Of a DNA stretch of 64,000 nt, positions 9,126-61,700 are shown piece after piece. The translations under genes were made by a program, and so were the position numbers. How positions within the stretch are numbered: the first letter of the stretch is position 1; every line of letters starts with the position of its first letter. Source of the DNA: Cheilinus undulatus (taxonomy: Eukaryota > Chordata > Actinopteri > Labriformes > Labridae); NCBI RefSeq assembly GCF_018320785.1, contig NC_054885.1, forward strand, positions 11,964,421-12,028,420, given 5' to 3'. The notes beneath the pieces are model-generated. The model had not been told where the DNA came from. It ran no database searches and worked only from the letters and a program-made list of their open reading frames with translations.

Positions 9126-12100
9126 TTAGCTGTGGCGGTAACGGCGCAGTAACATTGCAGTTACCACCACTATTATGGGTAGGCCTGCTACTGCTATTAC
9201 TTTCACAATCTTCTGCTTGACATGTTTCTTCTGAGTCTCCTTTTCCGCAGCCTTCCTTGCTTCTTCTTCTTCTCTCATCCACAGCCCATACTTCCCCTCC
9301 TCCAGCTCATTCTCCCTGTGTTGCTCCTCCAGCCGTCTCTCCTCATGCCTGATCTCAGCATCTCTCTCTGTCAGGATGCTCTCCTGCTTTTCCCTGATCT
9401 TCCTCTCCTCTTCAGGATACATTTTTGTGCTGTAATAGTTGTTTCCATTCAGGGCCACCATGGTCTGGATCTTCTCTATGAGCTTCGTCACCTGAGTCTG
9501 GTCTTGTTCGTCTTTGTTGTTGAAGACGTGGAAGCCGCCGCTACACTTGCGTATGAAGTCGCGGAAGGCCTCGTCGCTCTCAGAAACCACAGAGTTGATT
9601 GTTTTTCCTTTCAAGCGATCACCATGGGTGAACAGCACAATGGTGTGATCCCAAACTTTTGGGCCAAACTTTGACTCGATCAGCGTCTGGGTGTCTTGAT
9701 CTTCCTGGGTCATCCGTCCAACAGGGACTACAAACACGAAGGCGTGAGGTCCTGGCTCTGTGAGTTTGACACGCTTGAGTATGTCTCGAACGATTTGATC
9801 CTTACGATCAGGCTCAAAAAAGCCGGGTGTGTCGATGACAATGACAGGAACATCTTCTTTAGCATTCTCATCTACAGGCACATCTTTCACCATCCCCTCG
9901 CTTTTCTTACAGTGTTGAGTGGCTCTCACTACCCTCATGTCTGATTTAAACTCAACTCTTCCAAGGATGGTGTTCCCACTTGAGCTTTTGCCGGCCCCAC
10001 TCTTTCCGAGAAGCATAATCCTCAGGGGCTCTGTGAAATCAAACATCAGAAACACTTTACTTAACAAAATACTGCTTTAGTGAAGTTCCTCGGCAAATAA
10101 TTTCACCTCAGATTAAACAACTATATAAGTATGTTTGGTCTGCTAGTCAGAAAAACGCCCAGAAAACTGAAAAAACTGGGCACTATCTATTTGCCACAGT
10201 GTAACAGCAGCAGTAGATAACCAGTGTGAAGATGGTTTACAGAATGTGGCTAATCATAGCTGCTCTAGCACCACTGTTTTTTATTTCTCTGCTTGTTAAC
10301 ATTCCTGTGCAGAATATCTCCACAAATACTTCACTTAGATGGGAATATAACCTGTCATAGCCTACATACAACTTTATCCCTGTTTTCTTGATCAAAATGA
10401 TCCTAAATTGTGCTGTTACTACTTAGTACTACCTCCCTGCCATAATGCTTTTTCATCTGATGTAAACAACAGTGAATGGATAACACTGATGGCACCCCCT
10501 GGAAATAGCACGGTTTAGTACTTTTTGGAAGAAAACCTCTTGACATGCCCATAATCATGCATAACTTGTGTCCTGAGAGCCAAATCATAAAACATGTTTT
10601 TTAACCAGGCTAAATTCCAGGAACTGCAGTTTTCTTCCACCTCTCCCGGCTTCATTTTTCAACCACACAGTTTCTGCTTGGTTACGTGTCAGGTCAACTC
10701 TTAGTCATCAACTTCTCTTTAAAACTTGCTTTCCTGTCAGACCTGCTTAACAGTCTGTAATAATTTAGAGGTTAATGAGGGTGACTCAGGCCTTGTGTTT
10801 ATTTGCATGTGAAGCAAGAAAGTGAGGATGGTGGCTTGCAGTAATTTGGATATTCTTTGACAATGAAAAATAAATGACTTGTAATATTTCCTATTTTAAA
10901 AGCAAAAACAGTCTTTTTAAATTAATATTTTTCCGGACCTATAATCAATTAACATAAGAAACCTTTAATGGAAGACTTTTAAGTAAACTTGTGTGTTATG
11001 GCATATTGTTTTTTTCTGGTAGATGTTTTAGTCTCACATACACAAAACTTAAAACAATGTTAGAGAGAAAAACGTCTTTGCTAACAGCCCAAAATGCTTC
11101 CTTTACACTAGACTCTAGTAACCTTGCAAAGCAGATGGATATGCCCATTTACCGTTTCATTTTTCACTGGCGAATCGATCTTGTTAAGCTCCCGTCTGAA
11201 CCGTTTGGGCCCGGTTAGAAAGTGACAGGACCAATCGGCGACGAGGGACAGTGCTTTCAGGCACGGCAGAGTGACGTAAGCAAGCAGCAGCAAGAGGGGG
11301 TACAGTTATGGCGGAAGAGCTTAGCATGGATGCTGTTAAAGCACCAGTTTTATCAGAACTTGACAACAATTCTTTGTTAAAAGAAGAACAAAGAACAGCA
11401 GTGAGTTGTTTTCTTTTCAAAACAGCAAAAGTCGAGTACTTACATGACTATAGTCGCCATGTTTCGCGTTATTCCTTGTAGCTGCGCACGCGCAGCTTGA
11501 TAGCTGCTACATCACGTTTTGTTGCTCTTATTGGCCTGTAGAGATGTGACAGACAGAACGTTCACCCAATCATACTTCAAGTTTTTTTCAAAGCCTTTGC
11601 CTTTTCTCAAACGTTTCCTATTGAAGCTTTCCCAGATGGAGGTGTTCACACATCCATCTGACGTGTCAGGTTAAGCCTCAAGTGCATTGGCTCCCAACCT
11701 GGGGTCTGGACACCCTTTAGGGAGGTGCAAAGATCTCTGGGGGGGGGTGCAGGGCTCTAACCTTGTCATAATTAGAAGTACAAATATTATTAAATACCAT
11801 GATTAAAAACATGTATGAAAGCATATTAAGGCCACCCTAAACGAGAAAAAATTAAAGATAATCTGTGTTTTTTAAGAAAAAATTAAGAACAATAAATTTG
11901 AGAAAATAATGTTTTATATTTACAAGATCCAAACTCATAATTCCAGGGTTTAAAAAGTCATATATTATTGTGGAAAAAAACCTAAAACTTCCAAGTTTCA
12001 AAAGTCATATATTTTGATATTACAAAGTCAAAATTTCACATTTTTAAAGTCAGACATTTTTTTTTAACATTGTAAAGTCAAAAATGTATATGAAACCAAA

Positions 12101-18161: not shown

Positions 18162-21100
18162 TCATTGCTTAGCTCTGGGGGTTGACACTTCTTGTGGGGG
18201 GCTACTGCCCATTAACACTGCAATTATCACCAGTATTATGGATACTATAACTATCAGAATCTTCTTCTCTAAATGTTTCTTCTGAGTCTCCTTTTCTGCA
18301 GCCTTCCTTGCTTCTTCTTCTTCTCTCATCCACAGCCTACACTTTCTTTCCTCCAGCTCATTCTCCCTGTGTTGCTCCTCCAGCCGTCTCTCCTCACGCC
18401 TGATCTCAGCATCTCTCTCTGCCAGGATGCTCTCCTGCCTTTCCCTGATCTTCCTCTCCTCTTCAGGATACATGTTTGTGCTGTAATACTTGTTTCCATT
18501 CAGGGCCACCATGGTCTGGATCTTCTCTATGAGCTTCGTCACCTGAGTCTGGTCTTGTTCGTCTTTGTTGTTGAAGACGTGGAAGCCGCCACTACATTTG
18601 CGTATGAAGTCGCGGAAGGCCTCGTCACTCTCAGAAACCACAGTGTTGATTGTTTTTCCTTCCAAGCGATCACCATGGGTGAACAGCACAATGGTGTAGT
18701 CCCAAACTTTTGGGCCAAACTTTGACTCGATCAGCATCTGGGTGTCTTGATCTTCCTGGGTCATCCGTCCAACAGGGACTACAAACACGAAGGCGTGAGG
18801 TCCTGGCTCTGTGAGTTTGACACGCTTGAGTATGTCTCGAACGATTTGGTCCTTACGTTTAAGCTCAAAAAAGCCGGGTGTGTCGATGACAACGACAGGA
18901 ACATCTTCTTTAACGTTCTCATCTATAGGCACATCTTTCACCACCCCTTCACCTTTCTCGCAGTGTTTAGTGACTCTCACTACCCTCATGTCTGATTTAA
19001 ACTCAACTCTTCCAAGGATGGTGTTCCCACTTGAGCTCTTGCCGGCCCCACTCTTTCCGAGAAGCATAATCCTCAGGGGCTCTGTGAAATCAAAAGGTAA
19101 GAAACACTTTACTTAACAAAATACTGCTTTCGTGAAGTTCCTCAGCAAACAATTTCACCTTAGATTAAATAGTTTATAAGTATGTTTGGTCTGCTAGTCG
19201 AAGAAATGCTCAGAAAACAGAAATACTGGGCACTATTTATTTGCCACAGTGTGATAGCAGCAGTAGATAACCAGTGTGAAGATGGTTTACAGAATGTGGC
19301 TAATCATAGCCGCTCTCGCACCACTGTTTTTTATTTCTATGTATTTTCCCCATTTTAAAAGTAAAAACAGTCAGTTTTTAATTAAAATGTTTCCTGACCT
19401 ATATCAATTATCATAAGAAACCTTTAATGGAAGACTTTTGGGTAAACTTGTGTGTTATAGCATATTGTTTTTTTTTTCTGGTAAATGTTTTAGTTTCACA
19501 AACACAAAGCCTATAACGATGTTATTAACTTAGAAAAACGTCTTTGCTAACTGCTTATAACGCTTCCTTTACACTACACTCTATAATTAAATATTCTTTA
19601 ATACTATGATTAGAAAAACGATGTATGAAAGTGTATTAGGGCCAACCTAAAAGATAAAACATGAAAGATAGTCTGTTGTTTTCTTAAGAAAAAAAATATT
19701 GAGAAAAATTGATTTGAGAAAATAATGTTTATATTTACAAAATCCAAACTCAGAATTCCAGGTTTAAAAAGTCATACATTTATGTTAAAAAAAACTTAAA
19801 ATTTCCAAGTTTCAAAAATCATATATTTTGATATAATAAAGTCAAAATTTCACACTTAGAGTTGATTCCTTAATAAAATGATACTTGTTACTTGGACCGT
19901 TTAATAAGAAAATACTTGTGATTTTAGCCCAGAATGATCACATCGTCTTTATTATCTGGACAAAGAAGAGACATTTCTGTAAACTAGGGTAAGGGTCGTA
20001 TAATTTTATGACTGTAACTGAAACAAACTCAAGTCTGCAAAAATTTTGACTTTATATCAAAATCAAATCAAAAGTCAGACATGTTTTTACATTGTAAAGT
20101 CAAAAATTTATACAAAACCAAACTGAAAGCAGTTGTGGGTTACCCTAGTTTAAAGAAATGTCTCTTCTTTGTCCAGATAATAATGATGATGTGATAATTC
20201 TAGGCTAAAATCACAAGGAAAAGTATTTCCTTATTAAAAAGTATTTCCTTATTAAACAGTCCAAGGAAAAAATTTCATTTCATTAAGGTCTCAACTCTCA
20301 GACATGCAAGGAAAACAGCTTCATCTGGTCCGATTTTCCTCCACACATTTGGCTATTTTCAACTTTGTAATGTTAAAAATTCAAAGTTTTGGTACACGTA
20401 AATCTGCGACTTTATGAAGTTCAACTTTTTTTTATTATTATTTTAGATTTCTTAAACTTGAACATTTCGATTTTATTTTCTCTCAAATTAACATATCCTC
20501 ACTAGTTTTAGAGGTCATATTGTAATAATGGGGGGCTGAGGTGAAAAGGTTGGGAACAACTGCACTTTGCTCAAACTTTTTAAAGACCTTAAACGACTGG
20601 CGACAATTTGACATCCTCTCACATCTAAAGATAGTTTGTCACAGAAAAAAAAACCAAAATGATATTTTAAAATCATTTACACAGAGCAGAAACAGAAGAA
20701 AAGTGAGAAACCGAAGAGATTCTGCAAGTTACTGCAACAACCGAAGAACTATCCCGGATACACTTCAGAATAAAAGTACACATTTCAGATAAAAGTACAG
20801 TATGAAAACGCGGGTTGTCACAGCACAGAAACACACTGTTGGGGCTTTTGCTTTGAAAACTCCAATGGAGGTTTACAGTACTTGTAAAATCAGCCTGGCA
20901 TAAATTGACAGAAAACAACTAGCAGCGTTGAGAGAGCTGACTGCAGCAGCTCTGTTAGACAGGTGTCAGTATCTCTAGAGCTATGAGAGGAGATTCAGCG
21001 GCTTTAGGCAGAGCTCCTATGCTTTGAAAAGTTAAAACGATAATGCACAACACTGGCTCCCATTGGTTGTTGATGACGTTCGCGTCACTGAAAACACATT

Positions 21101-26500: not shown

Positions 26501-29500
26501 GTACTATAGCAAACCATTTTCACATCTTTTGGGATTGCCCCTCTGTGGCTCCATTTTGGAGATGTGTCCATGGTGTCCTGGAGGCAGTTTTTAGCTTTAA
26601 AATCTGCTTTAACTTTAAAACCATGTACCTCAACGTCTTAGAAGAACTTAAATGTGCAAACAGAGACAAATGTTTATTGAGACTATTGTTAGAAGCAAGC
26701 AAGAAGGCTCTGACCAGAAAATGGCTGAAAAGAGACATACCTATTTTAAATGACTGGATTGATGTTGTTTACAGTATATACGTTATGGAAAGAATCACAT
26801 TTAAAATGGGATGTAAAATTGATATCTTTGCTGAAATCTGGTCAAAATGGATCGCCTACGTTTTAACCGTAAGGCCTGATTTTGTATAGCAACAATATGC
26901 CCCCTATGGGGGGCATATCTTCAAATTTTATTGCAAACGAGGGAACTAATTTAGTTATATGTTCATGTTGTCATTTGTGTGATCTAAATGTTACTTGAGA
27001 GATGGATCCTCCCCCTGCTGTTTTGTTTTATTATTGTTTTGTTTTATTATTGTTTGTATTTGTGTTATGTTTCTCAAAAACAACAATAAAAAGTAAATAA
27101 AAAAAAAAAAAAAAAAAAAAAAGAAAAGAGCCCCGGCCAAGTACTGAAGGCATAAATGAATTTAATTTTCCAGAAGGTCAACATTTCTGTATCATAAATC
27201 CTTTTTTGGATTGGTGTTATGGGATATTCTAATATTTTAAGATAGATTTTTATGAGCTGTAAGCCATAATAATCAAAATTTTAACAAAAGTCTTGAAATA
27301 TTTCACTTTAAGATATCCTTATAGAATCAAGGGTATATCATCTACTGGTGTCTGGGTAAGAACTCCTGAAATGTTTTTGGGTTAGGAGTTAAGTCAATTT
27401 AACAAAAAATAACTTAAATCATAACAGGGGTTGGTGTTATTTTCAAATCATGACATTTGTAAGATTTTCTTGTCTGTAAAAAAGTGCAAGAAAGAACAAT
27501 TTTTATGGTTACACTTACATCAAAGAACTCCCAGGAAGTCTTAGCGTGCCCCGTCTCACGGCTGCGGTCCTTGACTCTCTTGTACGTGACGATCAGGTTG
27601 TTCCACTTGCGGCGGATCTTTTCCACAGGGAGCACGTGCCCCTTAGACGCCATCTCCTCCTGGACACTCTGAAAGAGCTGAGAGCGTTCCCGGGTTTCAT
27701 ACAGGCCCCAGCGGCGGCCAACGGCCTCGATCAGGCACAAAACGGCTTTGGAGGAGAAATCAGAGCCGGAGGGGAGCGTCTTCTCTGACGGAGCAGGAGG
27801 CATCACTGAGGCTTAAAGAGGAGGGGAAATGTCAGGTCATTTTAAATGCTGATGAATTCTACTAAATCATAGGTATACAAAAGAGTAATGAAACTGCTGG
27901 ACCACTATTTCCTGATGTACAGGTCTATAAAAGTATTCATTGCACTTATAATCAGTCATGGTCAATATTTGGCTTTTTGACCTAAAAAAAAAAAATCAAT
28001 TAAACAAAAATATGTCAGGTAAAATAAGTGACTGAAAAATCTTCACCCCCTTTAAAGTGACTGACCTAATTCAACAGAGGTCCAGCCAACTGGTGTTAGT
28101 AGCCTCACAATTAGTGAAATGGGGATCACCTGAGTGCAGTGAATGTGTCTCAAGTGATTGTAGTATAATGACACCTGTGTCTTGAAGGTTCAGTCACTGG
28201 TTAATCAGTATTCCTGGCTACCATTACACCATGAAAACAAAGGAACACTCCAGGCAACTCGGAGAAAAGGTTGTTGAAAAGTATAAGTCAGTGGATGGAT
28301 ACAAATAAATGTCCAAGGTACTGGACATCCCTTGGAGTTCAGTTAAATCCATCATCAAGAAATGGAAAGCACATGTGTAAATCTGCCTAGATCAGGCTGT
28401 CCTCACAAACTGAGCGGCCGTGCAAGATGTGAGACTAGTGAGAGAGGCCACCAAGACATGTACGACTACTCTGAAGGAGTTACAAGCTGCAGCACCTGAG
28501 ATGGGAGAGACTCTGCAAACAACAACTGTCTTCCAGGTCCCCCCCCAGTCGAAGCGTTATGGAAGAGTGGCAAAGAGAAAGTCAACGTTGAAGAAAACTA
28601 AATCTGGACTGGAGTTCACTAAAAGGCATGTGAGTGACTACATGGTCAAGTGGAAGAAAGTTCTTTGGTCTGATGAGACCAAAATGGAGCTTTGAGGCCA
28701 TCAGACAAGACGGCAAACACTGCACATCACCACAAACACATCATCCCCACTGTGAAGCATGGTGGTGGAAGCATCAAGCTGTTGGGATGCTTCTTGGCAG
28801 CCAGCCCAAGTGGCTGAGTCAAGGACCAGACCTCAGTCCAATATTCACCCCCTTTAATACTGGCTTAAAGGGGGTGAATATTTATGCAGTCACTTATATT
28901 ACACTACACATTTTATTTAACTGACATTGCTTTGTAGAAATCTGTTTTCACTTCAACATTAAAGAGGCATTTTTTTTTAAAAAAAGCAATGACCATGATT
29001 GACTTTAGGGTACAAATATTAAGATCTGAGCACAAAGTATTTAATTTCTACATTTAGCGTGAGAAATGTGCATAGCAACTGTCCTCTACAGGTTTAAACT
29101 GAGCAACAGTGTTTGAACTTAATGACTGGCTGAGCTGAATGCAAGTGATGTATGTGGTGCCTAATTTCATCACCACAGGTGTGGATGTGAAAAATATCCC
29201 ATACAGTTGATTCCTGACACCCCCTTTTTGGTGTATCCAGTTAAAATGTTATGTTGAAACTCAGATGTTTGCCAGAAAAAAGAAAAAAAAACTTGTGCAA
29301 GTTCATTACCTCTTATTCAGTCAATCGTTATTGTGCACCTGTTCATACAGGGCATAATGTAATTATTCAATTTAGACGATCAGACAACCAAAGTTTGATG
29401 AAGATGAACTCACCTGGAGCTATCTTCAGGTACGTTTTCCCATCTCCTGCTGTGGTGAAGAAGCGGTCTGTGCTCACGGGATCTAATGATAAGAGATTGA

Positions 29501-30879: not shown

Positions 30880-32560
30880 CTGATGTTGAAATTGTCAGTT
30901 TTACCAATTTTGTCCACTTCTAACCTCCTTTTTACTGATTCATCTGGCCAATTATGCAACTTCTTTTTGCCCCTTTTAACCCAGTTTTGCTTTTTAACTT
31001 CTTTACCTCTTTTCATTATTTTTCCACCCATTTCTGACCTGCTTTTTTTTTTTATATTTCTGTAACACAATTTTGCCACTTTACCTGATTTTTGCCGTTT
31101 TTAACCCCTTTTCACAAATGTTTTCATCTTTTTTCATTTTTGTAACCCATTTTGGCTTCTGTTAACCCATTTTTCCATCTTTTATACCCATTCTTGCAAC
31201 TTATTTTTTGCCTCTTTAACCCATCTTTTCCACTTTTTAACCTCTTTTCACCGTTGTTCTGCCAGTTTTTGCTACATATCCATTTATGCTGCTTGTAACC
31301 CAATTTGCCACACTTTGACTCTTAACTCATCTCTGCTGCTTTTTAACCTTTCACCACTTTTTCCACCCAATTTTTCCCCCAGTTTATTGCATTTCCGTAA
31401 CCCATTTTTGCCACTTTTAAACCCCTTTTCACCATTTTAAATACCAGTTTTTGCCACATTAAACCCATTCATGCTGCTTTGAACCCATTTTTGCAACCCA
31501 TTTTTGCCTCTTTAACCCATCTTTTCCACTTTTTAACCTCTTTTCACCGTTGTTCTGCCAGTTTTTGCTACATATCCATTTATGCTGCTTGTAACCCAAT
31601 TTGCCACACTTTGACTCTTAACTCATCTCTGCTGCTTTTTAACCTTTCACCACTTTTTCCACCCAATTTTTCCCCCAGTTTATTGCATTTCCGTAACCCA
31701 TTTTTGCCACTTTTAAACCCCTTTTCACCATTTTAAATACCAGTTTTTGCCACATTAAACCCATTCATGCTGCTTTGAACCCATTTTTGCAACCCATTTT
31801 TGCCTCTTTAACCCATCTTTTCCACTTTTTAACCTCTTTTCACCGTTGTTCTGCCAGTTTTTGCTACATATCCATTTATGCTGCTTGTAACCCAATTTGC
31901 CACACTTTGACTCTTAACTCATCTTTGCTGCTTTTTAACCTTTCACCACTTTTTCCACCCAATTTTTCCCCCAGTTTATTGCATTTCCGTAACCCATTTT
32001 TGCCACTTTTAAACCCCTTTTCACCATTTTTAATACCAGTTCTTGCCACATTAAACCCATTCATGCTGCTTTGAACCCATTTTTTGCAACCCATTTTTGC
32101 CTCTTTAACCCATCTTTTCCACTTTTTAACCTCTTTTCACCATTTTTCTTTCAGTTTTTGCAACATATCAATTAATGCTGCTTGCAACCCAATTTGCCAC
32201 ACTTTAACTCTAAACTCATCTTTGCTGCTTTTTAACCATTTTTTTTACCAGCTTATTGCATTTCTGTAACCTAATTTTGCCACTTGTTTCACATTTTTGT
32301 CACTTTTTGTTTTTACCCATTCCCCAATTTTCCGCCCACTTTTTGCAGCCCTTTTCTCTCTGTATCCAATTTTTACACCTTTTACGCTTTTTTTGCCTTT
32401 CACCCCTTTTTCTGTCAGTTTTTACTGCATTTAACCAATCTCTGCAATTATTTTAGTATTTTTCCCTTAAGGTTGTCTCAGTTTTGTTCTGCCTTATTCT
32501 CTGGTGTACTTTATTTTGTGTACATTACAGCCCAGGATCCCTGGGACTGGCCTAAAAATT
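30880..32560. repeat. TTTTAACCC-type satellite with 296-bp higher-order units
   Basis: A base motif of about 20-30 bp (CCATTTTTGCCACTTTTAACC) is repeated throughout. From about 31200 it is organised into near-identical higher-order units: GCCTCTTTAACCCATC begins at 31210, 31506, 31802 and 32099, giving periods of 296, 296 and 297. The repeated open frames beginning MNPFLQPIFASL are by-products of the repeat. Confidence 0.92.
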
Positions 32561-49768: not shown

Positions 49769-52700
49769 TTATTTTCCTTCCTCAGTCAGGCCGGGATTGT
49801 ATTCATGTTCATTTCCTTCCAAGTCGTGGTAAATAACATCTGTGTGCTGCTTCTGACACGTCTGCACCACCTGCAGGATGGCAGCAAGGCGGCGATCCAG
49901 AGCAGAGAGGTGTTCTTCAGAGAGGAGCGGGGCCACGCCAGCTAGAGGATCCTGGAGCAGAGACTCGCGCATGATTTCACTCAGACGGAAGCCTTGGAAG
50001 GACAACAGACGCAAGCGGAGGAGGGTGGAGTGACGGATCCTACAAGTGCAGGTGCAGAGAGTCAGTGAATTACATGCACTAAGAACTTTCCGAATAACAT
50101 CTGACCCAATCTGAAAAAAAAAAACATTCAACACATCTTGAATTGATTTGGGGTCAAGGCTTTTGTTTTTACCTGCAACACTGTTTCAAAGGAGCCAGAA
50201 TAGACGGCTCATCCTGAGAGTGACGCCCAAACCTGGAAAACAATACCATGACAGTTTTATGTCACAAAGCAAGCATAGAAGTTACTATAATAGCCAAAAC
50301 TTACTAGATGTGAGGCTGGTAAGGCTGCTGCATAATGGTACAAGTAAGCTGTCACTTCAATAACAAAATGATGACAACATTAGTCATAGTACTCACGCTC
50401 GTCCATTATCCAAGTGTAGCAGAAAAGTCTCATTGCCAAATTTCTCAAATGTCTCATAGTGATGTCTGTCCATGTTGCCTTTGAATAAGAGACAATTAAA
50501 TATGAAGCACACAAACATAATGCAATAGGTTGGTGAAAATCTATCATCTGTGACTCATTCCTATACAGGAAACAAGGCCTTTAAGGCAGCTTAATCTGCA
50601 TTTAAATGAACCAAAGAAAGACTGACTCATGAGGAAGTCCAGTATGGCCATGTCTATGAGATCCACCAGTCTGGTGCCATGGCTGTAAGGAGGTGTCTGT
50701 TTTACTGTGTCACAGTAGTCCGGGTCTTTCTCCCACCTGGAAACAACAAAAGAAGAGTGTCAGATACGATTCATTACAACTAGTGTTCATTATAACAACT
50801 GTGTTATTGGTTTTGAATGGCGATTTTATTTATTAAGAGGGTAAAAAGCCATCCAAACCTTCCTGGCCCTATGTGAAAAAGTAATTGCCTCCTAAACCTA
50901 ATAACTGGTTGCAACAAGTGCAAGCAAGAGTTTGCAATAACTGTCGATGACTTTCACAACACTGGAGGAATTTTGGCCCACTTTTCTTTGCTGCTATATT
51001 CATCAGATTTAAGTCTGAACTTTGACTTATTTTAAGCTATCCAGGGATGGACTTCCTGGTGTGTTTCAGGTCATCGCCCTGCTGCAAAACCCATCTGGCT
51101 TCAGGTTGAGGTCACAGACTGATGGCCGGATATTCTCCTTCAGAGTTTTCTGTTAGAGAGTAGAATTCATCCCAGACCATCACACTATACCACCACCATA
51201 TTTGACTGTTGGTATGAAGTTCTTTTATGAAGTTTTGTGTGATTTTTATGCTAGAAAAAACAGTACTCGGAAATGCCACAGTTTTACCCCACTTGGTTTT
51301 TTACGCATGGCTGAACCTACCCCTCTCTGATTGAACCAGAGCAATGGAGGGCGTAACACGCATCAGCTGTCTCTTGATACCGAGAGAATAAAACTTATGT
51401 GTTCAAACTTGTATGTTTTTTCAGAGAAAATCCCTCTCCATGTCACTGGAGCAATCAAAAGAGGGTGTGGGCCCAAGTCAGATGGCCTCTCCTACTGATG
51501 CTGAGAGAGTGATACTCAAGTGCTCAGCCTAAACAAAACCTGACAACAACCCACTGCCAAAAACATGTTTTTCATTGTCGCTGAAGGATGGATATTATTG
51601 TGAAAGGCTGCTTCATAAGGAATCAGGAAGTGCTATTGGAAGCTGCTGTTCTGTTGCTGTATCTCATTCATGTTTTGTGCTGCTTACTCTTGATGGACCA
51701 CAATTTTCCGGTCACTGCCTGTTCATCCTGTTGCCCAACCATTCCCAAAAAACTGCACTCTCAAAGGTGAACAGAAAATTACTGTTTCATTTTATGGATA
51801 AAATTCACATAATGGGGGTGAAAAGCTGTGGAAAAGTGCTATTCGTGGTCAACACAACAATCCCAGGATGTTTTGCTACTACTTTGCAGTGTAAAATTTT
51901 ACCAGTCACCTTTTGTAGCTGGTGGTGAAACTTACTGGTGATCCTCTTGTTTCATCTCAGTCTCCAGAGTCCTATGTCTGAGTTGTGATAGAAAGGCATC
52001 CATAGAGACTCCAATTTAACTAAACTGCAAAAACCTGTGCTTAAAAGAAATACTGCAGTGACGTTGTAAAGTGTGGGATCAGCTTTAAATGTAATTTGTA
52101 CTGCAGTTCTTCATCCATACCACTAGGGGCCAGTAAAGACTCAAAATAACACACCAAGATAAACACACTTCAGTTTAATACTACCAAGGAAAAAATGAAA
52201 ATGCTAAAAATAATACTTTTAAAGCCAACAAAGATGGATCCATTTTTTGTGCAAAAGTAAACATATAAACTAACTTGTCTACAAGTCCACTGGTTCATTA
52301 CTGATACTTACACTATAAAAATGAGCACTGATGTGACTTTTAATGCAAATATTAATGTTAGAGAAAAATATCAAGGAGTGAGGGATATTTTGCCTACTTT
52401 GCTAACTTGGTGCGGCTGTAGGAGCGTCTCCAAGGTGACCTCCAGGACCTGCGAGGTGCTAAGGCGAGATCAGGTAGCATGGCAGCGAGGGAAACCTCCA
52501 GTGCATGTGGCTGACCACAGATGGGGTGCTCCGTTGAACAGTAGTACTCACACTGGCCGTAGAAGCAAATGTTTCCAGCTGGAGGAAGTCAGAGAAACAC
52601 GTTAAGTAAGTCTGTACACTGCTGTTAGTTTAAATTTATAGAAAACCAGCCCTGGACTAAAATTATATCACTACATTTTACATATGGGATGGACCTACAC

Positions 52701-55700
52701 TCTAAAATCAGTGATATTATTTACAGAAACACATTAATAACCCTCTGAAAAACAAGTACTTGGCAAAAGCTGCAAAAAGATATCCTTTAATCAGAGAGGA
52801 TTCTAAAGTAATACCCACGTTATCTGTGGACAGCCATCCAGAAAGGGAAAAGCAAGAACCACTAGAATCATGATTATATGAGTATTATTTTAATAATAAC
52901 TGTAGCATGCCCTTAAGATATACTACGAATCTGGATAACTGATTGGTTTAGTCAGGGTTTATTTGTATAAGAGAGTATCATCTGAATAGCATTGAAAATT
53001 AAGCTACTATTAATGATATGACCCAAAGGAAGCATATAAAAGTAAAAAACATTGGTCCAGGAACTGAACCATGTGGAACTCCATGACTAACTTTCATAAG
53101 AAATTATCATTAATATCTACACAATAAATGTCAAACTGCTAAATAGGGTTTAAAATAGAATAATGCAGTTAATTTAATGCCAACTTGGTATTATAACCTC
53201 TGTCCAAAAGAAGCGCTATAATCAAGAGACTGATTCTTCAATCAGAAGATACACTATATTGCCAAAAGTATTCGCTCACCTGCCTTGATGAACTTAAGTG
53301 ACATCCCATTCTTAATCCATAGGGTTTAATACGACGTCGTTTCACCTTTTGCAGATAGAACAGCTTCAACTCTTCTGTGAAGGCTTTCCACAAGGCATAG
53401 GAGTGTGTTTATGGGAATTTTTGACCATTCATCCAGAAACGCATTTGTCAGGTCACACACTGATGTTGGACGAGAGGGCCTGGCTCTCAGTCTCTGCTCT
53501 AATTCATACCAAAGGTGTTCTTGAGCTAATCTGAAGGCCACATGAAGTTTGGAGGTCTGTAGTGATTGACTCTGTAGAAAGTTAGTGAGCTCTGCGCACT
53601 ATGCGCCTCAGCATCCGCTGACTTCGCTCCATCATTTTACGTGGCCTACCACTTCGTGGCTGAGTTGCTGTCATTCCCAATCGCTTCCACTTTGTTATAA
53701 TACAACTGACAGTTGACTGTGGAATATTTAGGAGCAAGGAAATTTCACGACTGGACTTGTTGCACAGGTGGCATCCTATCACAGTACCACGCTGGAATTT
53801 ACAAAGCTCCTGAGAGTGACCCATTCTTTCAAAAATATATGTAGAAACAGTCTGCATGCCTATGTGCTTGTTTTTATACACCTGTGGCCATGGAAGTGAT
53901 TGGAACACCTGATTTCAATTATTTGGAGGGGTGAGTGAATACTTTTGGCAATATAGTGTATCACTACACTACATTTTCTGAAAGCGTTTTGGTGAAATCA
54001 GCTTTCTTTGAGTATACCAGGGGAAGTGAAGAATGTTCTGGACAGCTTGTGGTCAGTGGTGATCTCTCTGATCTCTGAGGTGACGTTAATGAGTCGACCA
54101 ACCACTGGAGGGATCCTGTTAAAGCCGAGCACTCTGGTTCAGGTGCAGAGAAGAAAGAAGGGACTTTAAAGGTGAAAACAAACAGTCAGAGCATCAAAGA
54201 AACAAGTAGAAAGATCAAACACCAGCCCTCTTATCTTATCAATCAACACTTTGCTTTTATTCTTTTAATCACCTTCAGTTAAATGGCAATTCATTACTTC
54301 AACTCCTGCTTTAGAAAGCTATTTTTAACCATTTATCTTTGACTTTTAAGTAACCCATGACTTTAAGATAACTACTGTTACACTTTATAAATGACTTTTA
54401 CCTAACAAGTTCAACTATTTATCACTTACTTCAAACCAAATAAGCACATGAAGCTAACTGCTGCTACACTTTATAAATGACTTTTAGCTAACCATTTCAA
54501 ATGTTAAACTATGACTTCAAACCAAGGTATCCACATTAGGCTAACTGCTGCTACACTTAATAACTTCTAGCTAACTATTTCAACTATTTATCTATTACTT
54601 CAAATCAAATAACCCACACGAAGCTAACTCCTGCTACACTCAAGGACTTTTAGCTGACTATTTCAAATGTTAAACTATGACCTCAAACCAAGTAACCCAC
54701 ATTAAGCTAACTGCTGCTACATTTTAGATTTGACTTTGAGCTAACTATTTCAAGTTACAGCTATTTCATTCACATCGTGGAGTTTATACTCACTGTCTCA
54801 ACAATTTATCCATGATTTTCTATGACAGAGTTCACCTCATTCATATGGCGACCATCTTCCTTTAACTACAGGTGATGAGTTTACATAGCCTACTGTTTTG
54901 ACATCGTATATTCTATACCTCATAAGTCATGGTACATGTCAAATTTTCATCAGTCTATGGGACCTTTCTTGTGCTAAAATGACATTTGATATCCCTTGGC
55001 TACTTTTAGCAAATAGCTAATGTTACCATTCAATATAATGATATTACAAAGGGTGTACATTTAAATATTTTATGAGCTAACAATACCGTAGCTTTGAGTG
55101 GATGCCTTTTTTGTTATGATGGTGACGACTGACTGGCTAATGCTAACTAGAGAGTGGTCATCACACCTTTTTTTTCACTTTTGAGCAATCAATAGGCAAT
55201 AAAGTGTAGGAAAAAGTCAGATTTCCTTAATACTGCCTTCAGCCTGGAACACAGCAGTATGATTATGATAGGATTTGAGCTTCCCACCTTGAAGGCTGCT
55301 GTGTAAATACGGTCAGTAATCTGTCTACCCAAGAGGACATCTTGCACTTTAGCCTACCTGTCAAGGTGAAAGGCAGCAATCTCTGCATTGTGTCTTTCAA
55401 AGTCTGAGAAGTAGAAAAGGTTGACATTGGTCTCTGCATCTCTGGCTTGTCTATATAAAATGAGAAAACCACATTGTGTAAGGTTACATAAAGAGACCAA
55501 ACTATATGATATCACAGGATACCTTTTCAGGATATAAAATCATTACAAATTAAAGCATTCTGTATTAACTAAACTGATTAACTGATTGCATAAATCAATC
55601 ATGGTCCATATAGTTGGGCTTTCATTTGACCAAGAAAAATCACAAAAACACATTTTGATGTCTATATGAAAACACATTTTTTAAAGTAATGTGAGTTAAA

Positions 55701-58700: not shown

Positions 58701-61700
58701 AGGGGTGCCAAACATGAAGGGAAATCCATCTCATTTCACTAAAATAGATTAAAACTAATAGAGATTCATTGGGAGCATTTCTCCTCTCTGACTCCCTTGT
58801 TCCTCCCGAGGCCTTTTCATTCAGCTTTTGGTCCTGCCTTCGGTCCCCCCTCATTGGCCTACCAGCACCGAGGATACGCTGTGTTGCCAGGTAGTGTGTC
58901 AGCTGGGCCAGGTTGGGATTCTTCCTGTCGTATAGCTCCCAGCGAGAGATGCCCAGGTGGAACCTGAGCCAAGGAGGGTGGGTTTCCACGTCGCTCGTCC
59001 AATTGACTTTCTCATAGCCTTCCTCCTGACTGGCGCTCTCCCTGCAGGAGAGATGGTGTAGGTTAAAAATAGAAGGCAAAGAGATACTTGGAGGGTGCTG
59101 TTTCAGACCAGAGACCCATGCCCAGGAACCAGAGCTCACTCAGGATCAAAAAACGTAGAACCTTTGCTTGAGAATAAAGTGGGATTAAAAGCAGCATCCC
59201 TACTGGAGAACACCATAGTTTTATGTTTTATAGGTTTATAGTTTTTTTTTTTTTTTTTTTTTTTTTTTTGTTTGTGTTTCTTAGTGTGAAATCATGTTTT
59301 TTGTTGTAAAGAGCAGAAATTTATTTGACATGATTTTAAGTTAAGGGTTCATTAGTTTTAACCCTTTGGGGGAGTTTTGCACATTTTTACGTGCTTTTCA
59401 TTCTTCATATTTTTTAAATTTTGTCTGTGTTCATGTATATGGCATGAATTTTGGCAATATTGTGTACTTTTATTTGATCTTGTTATTTCCAGCTCCATGC
59501 ATTTAATAATTAATAATTCCATTATTAATATCTGGGTGTCAATCTAGATTTTTGCCTTGGAATTGGTAATTTTTTTCAAAAAATAAGAAAGCATAAAATC
59601 AATGTTGTTCATAATCATCGACATGTCCCAGGCTGTAATAACCTGACACGCCAGATGGATGTGTTTCAAATGTCCATCTGGAAAACCCGTCATATACAGT
59701 GTTTGGGAAAGGGCAGAGCCTCTGAAAAAAAAAAACTTGGAGGGTGATTTGATGAACGTTCTGTCTGCCAATCAGAGCAACAAAACACAGGACATCGTAG
59801 CCGCTACTGAAGTGTAAACGCCATATATAACTGCATAAGGCAAACCATGGCGATTGTAGACATGTCAGTACACGACTTTTGTCGTTTTTTGAAAAGAAAA
59901 TAACTCACTACTGTTCTTTGTTCTTCTTTTAACAAAGAAATGTCATCAAGTTCTGATAAAACTGGCGCTTTAGCAGCATCCACGCTAAGCTCTTCTGCCA
60001 TAACTGCACCGGCCTCTTGTCGCTGCTCGCTTACGTCACGGCTCTGCTGACCCTCATCACTGATTAGTCCTGTTACTCTCTAACCAGGCCCAAACTGTTC
60101 AGATGGGAGCTTTGCAAGATGGATTTGTCAGTGAGAAACAAGGAAACAATGGGTAAATCTGTCTGCTTTGCAAGGTTAAGGCTAGAATAGTTCAACACAA
60201 AACATGCTTGCATTGAAATGTGGAAAAAAAATGAATTTTTCTTTTTTTTTTCATTGAAAAACATAATGGCATCATGACAAAAACTGGAATTCAAATGGTT
60301 ATATTAAAACATATTTAAAATCAATAGTTAGGCCAGTTGGAGGTGAAAAAATTAGCTCAATGAAAGTGAAAAACATATTGATGTATATTATTATTTTACA
60401 GCTACCATATGAAAAGTGCATTTTTGTGCTCAGAAGTGAGAAAGAGTATGTGACATTGCACAACAAATGATAAAAAATCAATGTTGCTGCTAATTATTGA
60501 AATATCCCAGGCTGTAAAAATTGTAAAAAATACTTTGCAAGTATTGAATATAATTCATTTTCCTGTTTTTTTTTTAAATCAAAAACATCATAGCAAAAAA
60601 ACTGGCAATCAAAGGGTTCAAAGGGGGACAAATGTTAGTTCTATGAAAGTACAGCAAAATATGAATGTATCATCGCAGAAGTAGAGTACTGTTTCAGTTG
60701 TGGCAGCAGAGTTAAAGTCAAAAAAAAAAAAAAAGAACCTAATCTTTTGCAAAAAATTATAATGTCCTCATATGAGGATGCTTGGTCGTAGGACATTCAG
60801 ACCCAAAACAAGTCCTAGCTGCACAAGGCTGCCAAATTTTGTTGCCGTATTGGTTCTTGATGATTTGTACGTTGAGACTGAGCAGATAGTGCTATTAACC
60901 TTTTTGTTTTGATTCATCAGAACATTATGATTTAAAATACTGTCATAATTTTGGTTGTGAGTATGTTTATCATTTCTATGGTTTGTCTCAGTTTAGTCAT
61001 GAAACAACACGTCAAAAACTTCTTCTTGTCAAAATGTTTGTTTACAGAATAAACACAGCAGCACTGCCAAGTGGCAAAACTAAGAAGTGGGAGTAGTAGT
61101 AGTAACTAAGAAAAAGCACAAGCTTCATGCTCTAATGCAGGCCATATCTCATTCTATTTTTAGACTTTTCTACAGGCCAATTAAAAATAAATGACAAGCT
61201 GCAGTTGGCCCCCAGGCTACACTTGTCCTGGCCTGGACCAAATGGGACCAATTTATCTTAGTGTTGGTTGTCATTAGCATGGTTAAACTGGAGGCCACAC
61301 ATCTTATTTGTAAAGTAAGCTCATTCCTGCACATTTAAAATGTTGATAAAGATTAAATTGTGTAAAAACCAGGCCACTGCCTCTCAAACTTCACAGTACC
61401 ATTAAGAACATGAGTCTAGAAACCGTCATTAACGTATTTCCACTGGACATTTAAATGATTAATGTATTTTCTCTGTCTGTTTCACTCACCACTCGCTTTC
61501 ATTATTGATGATGTCCTCCTCCTCCTCTTTTCCATGTTCATTTGTCTTCACCCTTAGCAGCCAATCATCTTCTTGCAGCTCTGGGCGGGGCAGGTTGTAC
61601 AGCGGGTGCTTGAACAGTGCCTCTAGTTTAGAATGACCTTTGCCCTTTCGGATCAGCTTTTCTGCCCAGATGAGCTTCTTCTCGTTGACGTCATTGAACG

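Follow-up and report, generated by a model that had tools for sequence, protein, structure and literature searches.

The window, a stretch of 64,000 nucleotides from Cheilinus undulatus, contains two copies of a short mobile element which is very probably a non-autonomous internal-deletion MITE of a roughly 9-kb AcademH-like transposon, the run of 31 codons in each copy and the adjoining GTGAGT being, on this reading, passengers. Support comes from a longer element on contig C14, which has the same two ends as the MITE and encodes a RecQ-type helicase between them.

Copies in the window and in the genome

The two window copies, A and B, lie in opposite orientations and align with each other over their whole length at about 75% identity (blastn, 75.4% over 573 columns, E = 1.7e-106). 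Their termini, TAACC...GGTTA, coincide exactly with the ends that the original prediction had assigned to both copies, and imperfect 9-bp target duplications directly flank each of them (Table 1). The two copies are the same mobile element, as had been proposed. The ATG followed by 31 stop-free codons that end at GTGAGT is likewise present in both; the codons had been called identical, which they are not, differing at 8 of 93 nucleotides and 5 of 31 amino acids. Copy A departs from the A-type consensus at 36 of 551 sites and copy B from the B-type consensus at 46 of 530.

Table 1. Coordinates of the MITE copies and their parts in the window
Feature	Position	Strand	Remarks
MITE copy A, full length	11119..11673	+	5'-TAACCTTGCAAAGCAGATGGA ... 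TCCATCTGACGTGTCAGGTTA-3'
Copy A target duplication, left, 9 bp	11110..11118		AGACTCTAG; 7/9 matches to the right one
Copy A target duplication, right, 9 bp	11674..11682		AGCCTCAAG
Copy A, RecQ-like helicase gene, first 31 codons	11308..11400	+	
Copy A, internal-deletion junction, approximate	11409..11419		T-rich; from MITEs aligned to both ends of the C14 element
Copy A, start of the opposite-strand second gene	11420..11460	-	ATG 11460-11458; in-frame stop at codon 7
MITE copy B, full length	59639..60178	-	B-type subfamily
Copy B target duplication, left side on the + strand, 9 bp	59630..59638		TTACAGCCT in element orientation; 7/9 matches
Copy B target duplication, right side on the + strand, 9 bp	60179..60187		TTCTAGCCT in element orientation
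Copy B, RecQ-like helicase gene, first 31 codons	59909..60001	-	
Copy B, start of the second gene	59847..59888	+	14 residues; open further than in copy A
Duplication unit B, corresponding site	19561..19610		Element absent (around 19583)

The absence of the element from duplication unit B was correctly predicted. About 90 to 100 bp to the right of copy A (11683-11775) are also missing in that unit; this stretch begins near GGCTCCCAACCTGGGG and is perhaps a fragment of another repeat. AIG1/GIMAP-type GTPase reading frames are found at 9126-10076 and 18162-19112 on the minus strand (Pfam AIG1, E = 1.1e-51 and 9e-54) and sit in a tandem segmental duplication with about 89% identity across 1.47 kb. 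Elsewhere in the window, self-matches and repeated reading frames mark a tandem array whose unit recurs about every 296 bp (31164-32430), and the minus strand carries a Sleeping Beauty-type HTH domain belonging to a Tc1-like transposase fragment (53585-53914), a piece of a Myb/SANT-like (MADF) reading frame (27417-27812), and a piece matching the Fam20C C-terminal domain (49772-50185).

The genome searched comprises 1.17 Gb in 46 contigs, and the MITE consensus is 558 to 560 bp long. Querying with copy A returned 8,832 first-look candidates; of the 40 that were scored, all but the query itself (100%) have 88 to 89% identity and span essentially the whole element. For copy B, with 7,714 first-look candidates and again 40 scored, those other than the query (100%) are 80 to 83% identical and mostly full length. 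A 24-mer over the codon end and GTGAGT has 5,310 exact matches in the genome and a 20-mer from the terminal repeat has 5,782, with none for either reversed control. The MITE family has thousands of copies.

Target duplications were scored in a sample of 49 copies, composed of 28 A-type and 21 B-type copies (including copies A and B, respectively), 44 of them with clean ends. Both sets are the best matches to the window copies and hence biased and non-random, which also applies to their mean divergence from their own consensus, 6.1% for the A type and 8.1% for the B type. In the 44 clean-ended copies, the mean flank identity at 9 bp is 0.856, compared with 0.262 in cross-copy controls, and no other flank length from 2 to 13 bp exceeds 0.30. 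At least seven of the nine positions match in 40 of these copies, and the duplication is exact in 12. A TTAA target duplication (piggyBac or Kolobok), which a few borders had first suggested, was rejected, as the flanks of the 44 copies match only at 9 bp.

A further sample, referred to as the terminal-repeat sample, consists of the first 40 places listed for the terminal 20-mer, all on contig C1. Nineteen of these copies are full length; the other 21 are partial, interrupted, or altered and were excluded from the divergence count. The target duplications are weaker here, with 3' ends picked by a simple pattern (mean identity of 0.54 versus 0.26; at least seven of nine in 6 of the 13 scorable copies among the 19). 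Meaningful break points near the ATG of either gene were considered for the partial copies and rejected, since the 11 of 21 post-break parts that were compared have only a short low-complexity match in common. We take the partial copies to be individual truncations, insertions, or variants. One copy (L111) has both MITE ends around an unrelated interior of nearly 400 bp and is perhaps a derivative with captured sequence.

The long relative on contig C14

The RecQ profile TIGR00614 matches 28 genome stretches among the 45 scored of 102 first-look candidates, three at C14:1086116-1088087 on the minus strand, the remaining 25 being spread over seven further loci. Of the stretches extracted with their surroundings, those on C14 are the only ones that also carry MITE sequence; the 25 others (on C21, C9, C23, C16, C7, C24, and C1) have no MITE match at an E value of 0.01 in the roughly 1.5 kb to either side. 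The MITE 5' half lies directly at the start of the C14 helicase, being 80 to 83% identical to eight A-type copies and 78.6% to window copy B, and 21 of the 31 residues of the codon-run peptide match the helicase start. Some 8.4 kb farther downstream, oriented alike, is the MITE 3' half (87 to 92% identity to the same eight A-type copies and 74% to copy B), where the 3' end of the element reads ...GTGTCAGGTTA. The flanks, AAAACCAGC and AAAACCAGA, match at eight of nine positions, giving an element that spans about 9.0 kb (about 1079324-1088318). A longer relative joining the 31 codons to a helicase reading frame therefore exists, and the motif LLKEEQRTA, which the original prediction had likened to the entry of a RecQ-type helicase, is indeed such an entry.

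The helicase strand of the C14 element matches Helicase_C (E = 1.2e-12) and DEAD (E = 7.8e-5, below the curated cut-off). The copy is broken, its helicase carrying stops and frame changes and its second gene lying in scattered pieces; some of the gaps in these genes may be introns or later insertions. The C-terminal 282-residue helicase piece matches other loci at an E value of 3e-5 or weaker, except for two decayed loci, C9:4467641-4467856 and C12:2269407-2269929, which hold the pieces nearest to the C14 helicase. At the C12 locus, a stretch resembling the MITE 5' end (74 to 81%) lies about 7.3 kb upstream of the decayed RecQ piece on the same strand, and the region C12:2262001-2279000 (L049 and L050) may be another long relative that insertions have disrupted. 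The surroundings of the C9 locus yielded only a short stretch resembling the 3' half.

The whole-genome search for DUF6589 (Pfam ID PF20231) gave two candidates, both of which were scored, and a single match at an E value of 0.001 or lower in the 1.17 Gb. This match lies inside the C14 element on the strand opposite the RecQ helicase (E = 3.9e-15). Among the translated pieces of the element, DUF6589 is matched at E = 8.5e-15, with a second piece at E = 0.01, below the cut-off. An opposite-strand gene seems to start, with 19 residues, just inside the 3' end of the element, and its strand and order suggest that it is the DUF6589 gene. The DUF6589-domain protein is probably the transposase of the element. 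On its opposite strand, the MITE still carries the beginning of the second gene, as MATIDM-stop-VLDFCRF-stop in the A-type consensus and as 14 residues with one stop in the B-type consensus.

Both MITE ends are thus common to the longer C14 element, the middle of which is missing in the MITE, a comparison made with one long relative. Since the two have the same ends, the MITE can be read as the ends of the parent joined together, keeping the starts of both inward genes. The full parent would have ended in short and imperfect terminal inverted repeats (TAACC...GGTTA) and carried two inward genes, one for a RecQ-like helicase running from the 5' end and one for a DUF6589-domain protein running from the 3' end on the other strand. 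An ancestral copy would have lost its middle of about 8.4 kb, leaving a 5' part of about 300 bp, with the terminal repeat, the upstream region, and about 36 helicase codons, and a 3' part of about 260 bp, holding the beginning of the opposite gene together with the region upstream of it and the terminal repeat. This remnant would have retained the mobilisation sites and multiplied to thousands of copies, presumably in trans, each insertion duplicating 9 bp of the target. The 31 codons and GTGAGT would then be coding sequence of the lost gene and not a maintained exon and donor. The deletion model rests on one long relative, which is itself fragmentary.

MITEs derived from autonomous parents are described in an excerpt of PMC2872659 for one CMITE family and a piggyBac-like element, with which the present family has in common the short length, the high copy number, and, under the deletion model, the spread by the machinery of the parent. 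As far as the CMITE case is described there, the family differs from it in that both inward gene starts are kept, giving short reading frames on both strands.

GTGAGT and the question of codon-run maintenance

The codon run had been read as a discrete exon with a splice donor at its end. In the C14 element, the frame ...LKQEQRTAVSSFLSVFALLPTGFDKSLIYQLAPL...VVSPLVALTEDQ is unbroken at GTGAGT: the codons run ...LKQEQRTA-VSSFLSVFALLPTGFDKSLIYQ..., where GTGAGT codes for V-S (A-V-S) and the frame continues into the ATP-binding motif. A 106-residue C14 piece aligns to the ATP-dependent DNA helicase Q5 from residue 26 and across the GTGAGT point (E = 2.7e-5). The alignment to the Q5 chain extends over the ATP-binding motif, Q5 having two inserted residues near the GTGAGT point, and there is no room for an intron at GTGAGT in the C14 copy. 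The similarity of the MITE to the C14 5' end stops about 10 bases past GTGAGT in a T-rich stretch, after which the 3'-end sequence follows; T/C-rich stretches are found at both sides of the missing middle. In copy A, the helicase frame also goes on past codon 31 through GTGAGT (11401-11406) as VSCFL, up to the junction. The reading as a discrete exon is not supported by these observations: the C14 frame continues through GTGAGT without an intron, and the MITE breaks at the deletion junction. The labels donor, exon, and promoter for GTGAGT, the codons, and the upstream part are interpretation.

It is very unlikely that the 5' end, the 31 codons, and GTGAGT form a maintained portable first exon that is spliced into host genes, making the family an exon-donating MITE. 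Such a function would fit the exact preservation of GTGAGT in 38 of the 49 sampled copies and in 18 of the 19 full-length copies of the terminal-repeat sample, as well as the gain of a second donor-like motif, GTAAGT, at codons 12 to 14 in one subfamily. It would also fit part of the divergence data. In the B-type sample, the non-CpG divergence is 3.7% in the codons versus 5.7 and 5.8% in the flanks, and 87 non-synonymous and 41 synonymous changes stand against 110 and 36 expected. In the 19 full-length copies of the terminal-repeat sample, the codons diverge by 5.1%, compared with 6.7%, where the intervals overlap, and with 12.9% in the 3' half, which we take to reflect mixed subfamilies and which is thus probably inflated; non-synonymous changes are again fewer than expected (77 versus 156), but so are synonymous ones (33 versus 53).

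The A-type sample argues against maintenance. Its codons diverge by 3.9% at non-CpG sites; the corresponding value is 3.4% for the non-coding 5' part and 4.05% for the 3' half, and codon positions 1, 2, and 3 diverge by 6.0, 7.8, and 5.5%. Non-synonymous changes number 127, where the 3'-half spectrum predicts 109, and synonymous ones 41, where it predicts 34. Stops interrupt the codons in 11 of the 28 A-type copies, in 6 of the 21 B-type ones, and in 9 of the 19 full-length copies of the terminal-repeat sample; the frame length is changed in 4 of these 19. The excess conservation of the codons over their flanks, by which the original prediction could be judged, is hence lacking in the A-type sample and weakly present in the B-type and terminal-repeat samples. 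The weak excess in two of the three samples counts against the deletion-derivative reading of the codons as passengers; it may stem from weak constraint in older source elements.

An in-frame TAA (GCGTAAGTT) marks a subfamily that has itself multiplied, being found in 9 of 28 A-type copies, in 2 of the 40 terminal-repeat copies, and at 193 exact matches genome-wide, and an open frame is therefore unnecessary for spread. In this subfamily (L104 and L105), a change from CCAG to TAAG at codons 12 to 14 creates both the stop and GTAAGT. A combined proposal goes further. The element would spread upstream regions by the thousand, facing inward and bearing the start codons of both genes of a lost AcademH-like transposon, and some copies would use GTGAGT, or the GTAAGT of the multiplied subfamily, as a cryptic donor, giving the host an ample stock of mobile first exons; in addition, the transposases of this RecQ-encoding lineage would be DUF6589 proteins. 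Taken as a pair, we regard these two statements as improbable.

Placement of the family

The RecQ helicase and the 9-bp target duplication point to the AcademH lineage of the Academ transposons as the best placement. The duplication is a feature of the MITE and the helicase one of the C14 relative, not of the MITE; the AcademH label rests on these two features. The second gene matches only DUF6589. According to an excerpt of PMC10045372, AcademH elements make target duplications of 9 or 10 bp and AcademX elements of 3 or 4 bp, which the author links to the helicase and nuclease, and an excerpt of PMC3627910 describes the Academ helicase as RecQ. AcademH was described by Kojima in 2020 in animals and fungi (as cited in passages of PMC10045372 and PMC10799480); among the AcademH literature matches listed, none is on fish by title. 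The present family thus resembles AcademH, as outlined in these excerpts, in being a DNA transposon with a helicase and target duplications of 9 to 10 bp. It differs in that the window copies are non-autonomous, the long copy is broken, and the second gene matches DUF6589. DUF6589 is not mentioned in the literature searched, and a literature search on PF20231, DNA9NNN1, or Academ transposase yielded nothing related.

Three other origins were weighed against this placement. The least improbable, though still unlikely, is a MuDR/Mutator-like element that has captured a RecQ helicase. The 9-bp target duplication of the family would suit it, and an excerpt of PMC3627910 records MuDR-like elements that have 9-bp duplications and carry other genes but lack a MuDR transposase. 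The second gene, however, matches DUF6589, and the Pfam scan of 20 of the 52 translated C14 pieces revealed no MULE transposase domain, although the genes are broken and a domain may have been missed. A Kolobok-type element would also account for a RecQ helicase, which KolobokH carries too, and some of the element borders can be read as TTAA. Kolobok elements have TTAA duplications (excerpt of PMC9587614), but the flank identity at 4 bp does not rise above the control (0.216 versus 0.243), in contrast to 0.856 versus 0.262 at 9 bp; the length of the target duplication contradicts a Kolobok origin. KolobokH, which encodes a RecQ helicase as the C14 relative does, differs from it by its 4-bp TTAA duplications and is, in the same excerpt, reported from fungi only, so that this origin is extremely improbable. 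It is just as hard to believe that a fragment of a host RecQ gene was caught by an unrelated MITE. The genome offers possible sources, given the 25 of 28 RecQ stretches at seven other loci, but the C14 helicase lies between the same 5' and 3' ends as the MITE, within an element flanked by an 8/9 target duplication, and its 282-residue piece has only the weak matches given above outside the decayed C9 and C12 loci.

With the deletion from an AcademH-like parent as the preferred reading, the analysis traces a very abundant short repeat to its very probable origin and locates what is left of its approximately 9-kb parent. It also corrects a tempting misreading, as a codon run that ends at GTGAGT can be the truncated start of a coding sequence rather than an exon. 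In the parent, a RecQ helicase and a DUF6589 gene lie together between the common ends, which suggests a role for DUF6589; if DUF6589 is the transposase of a RecQ-encoding lineage, this would provide a function for an unnamed Pfam family.
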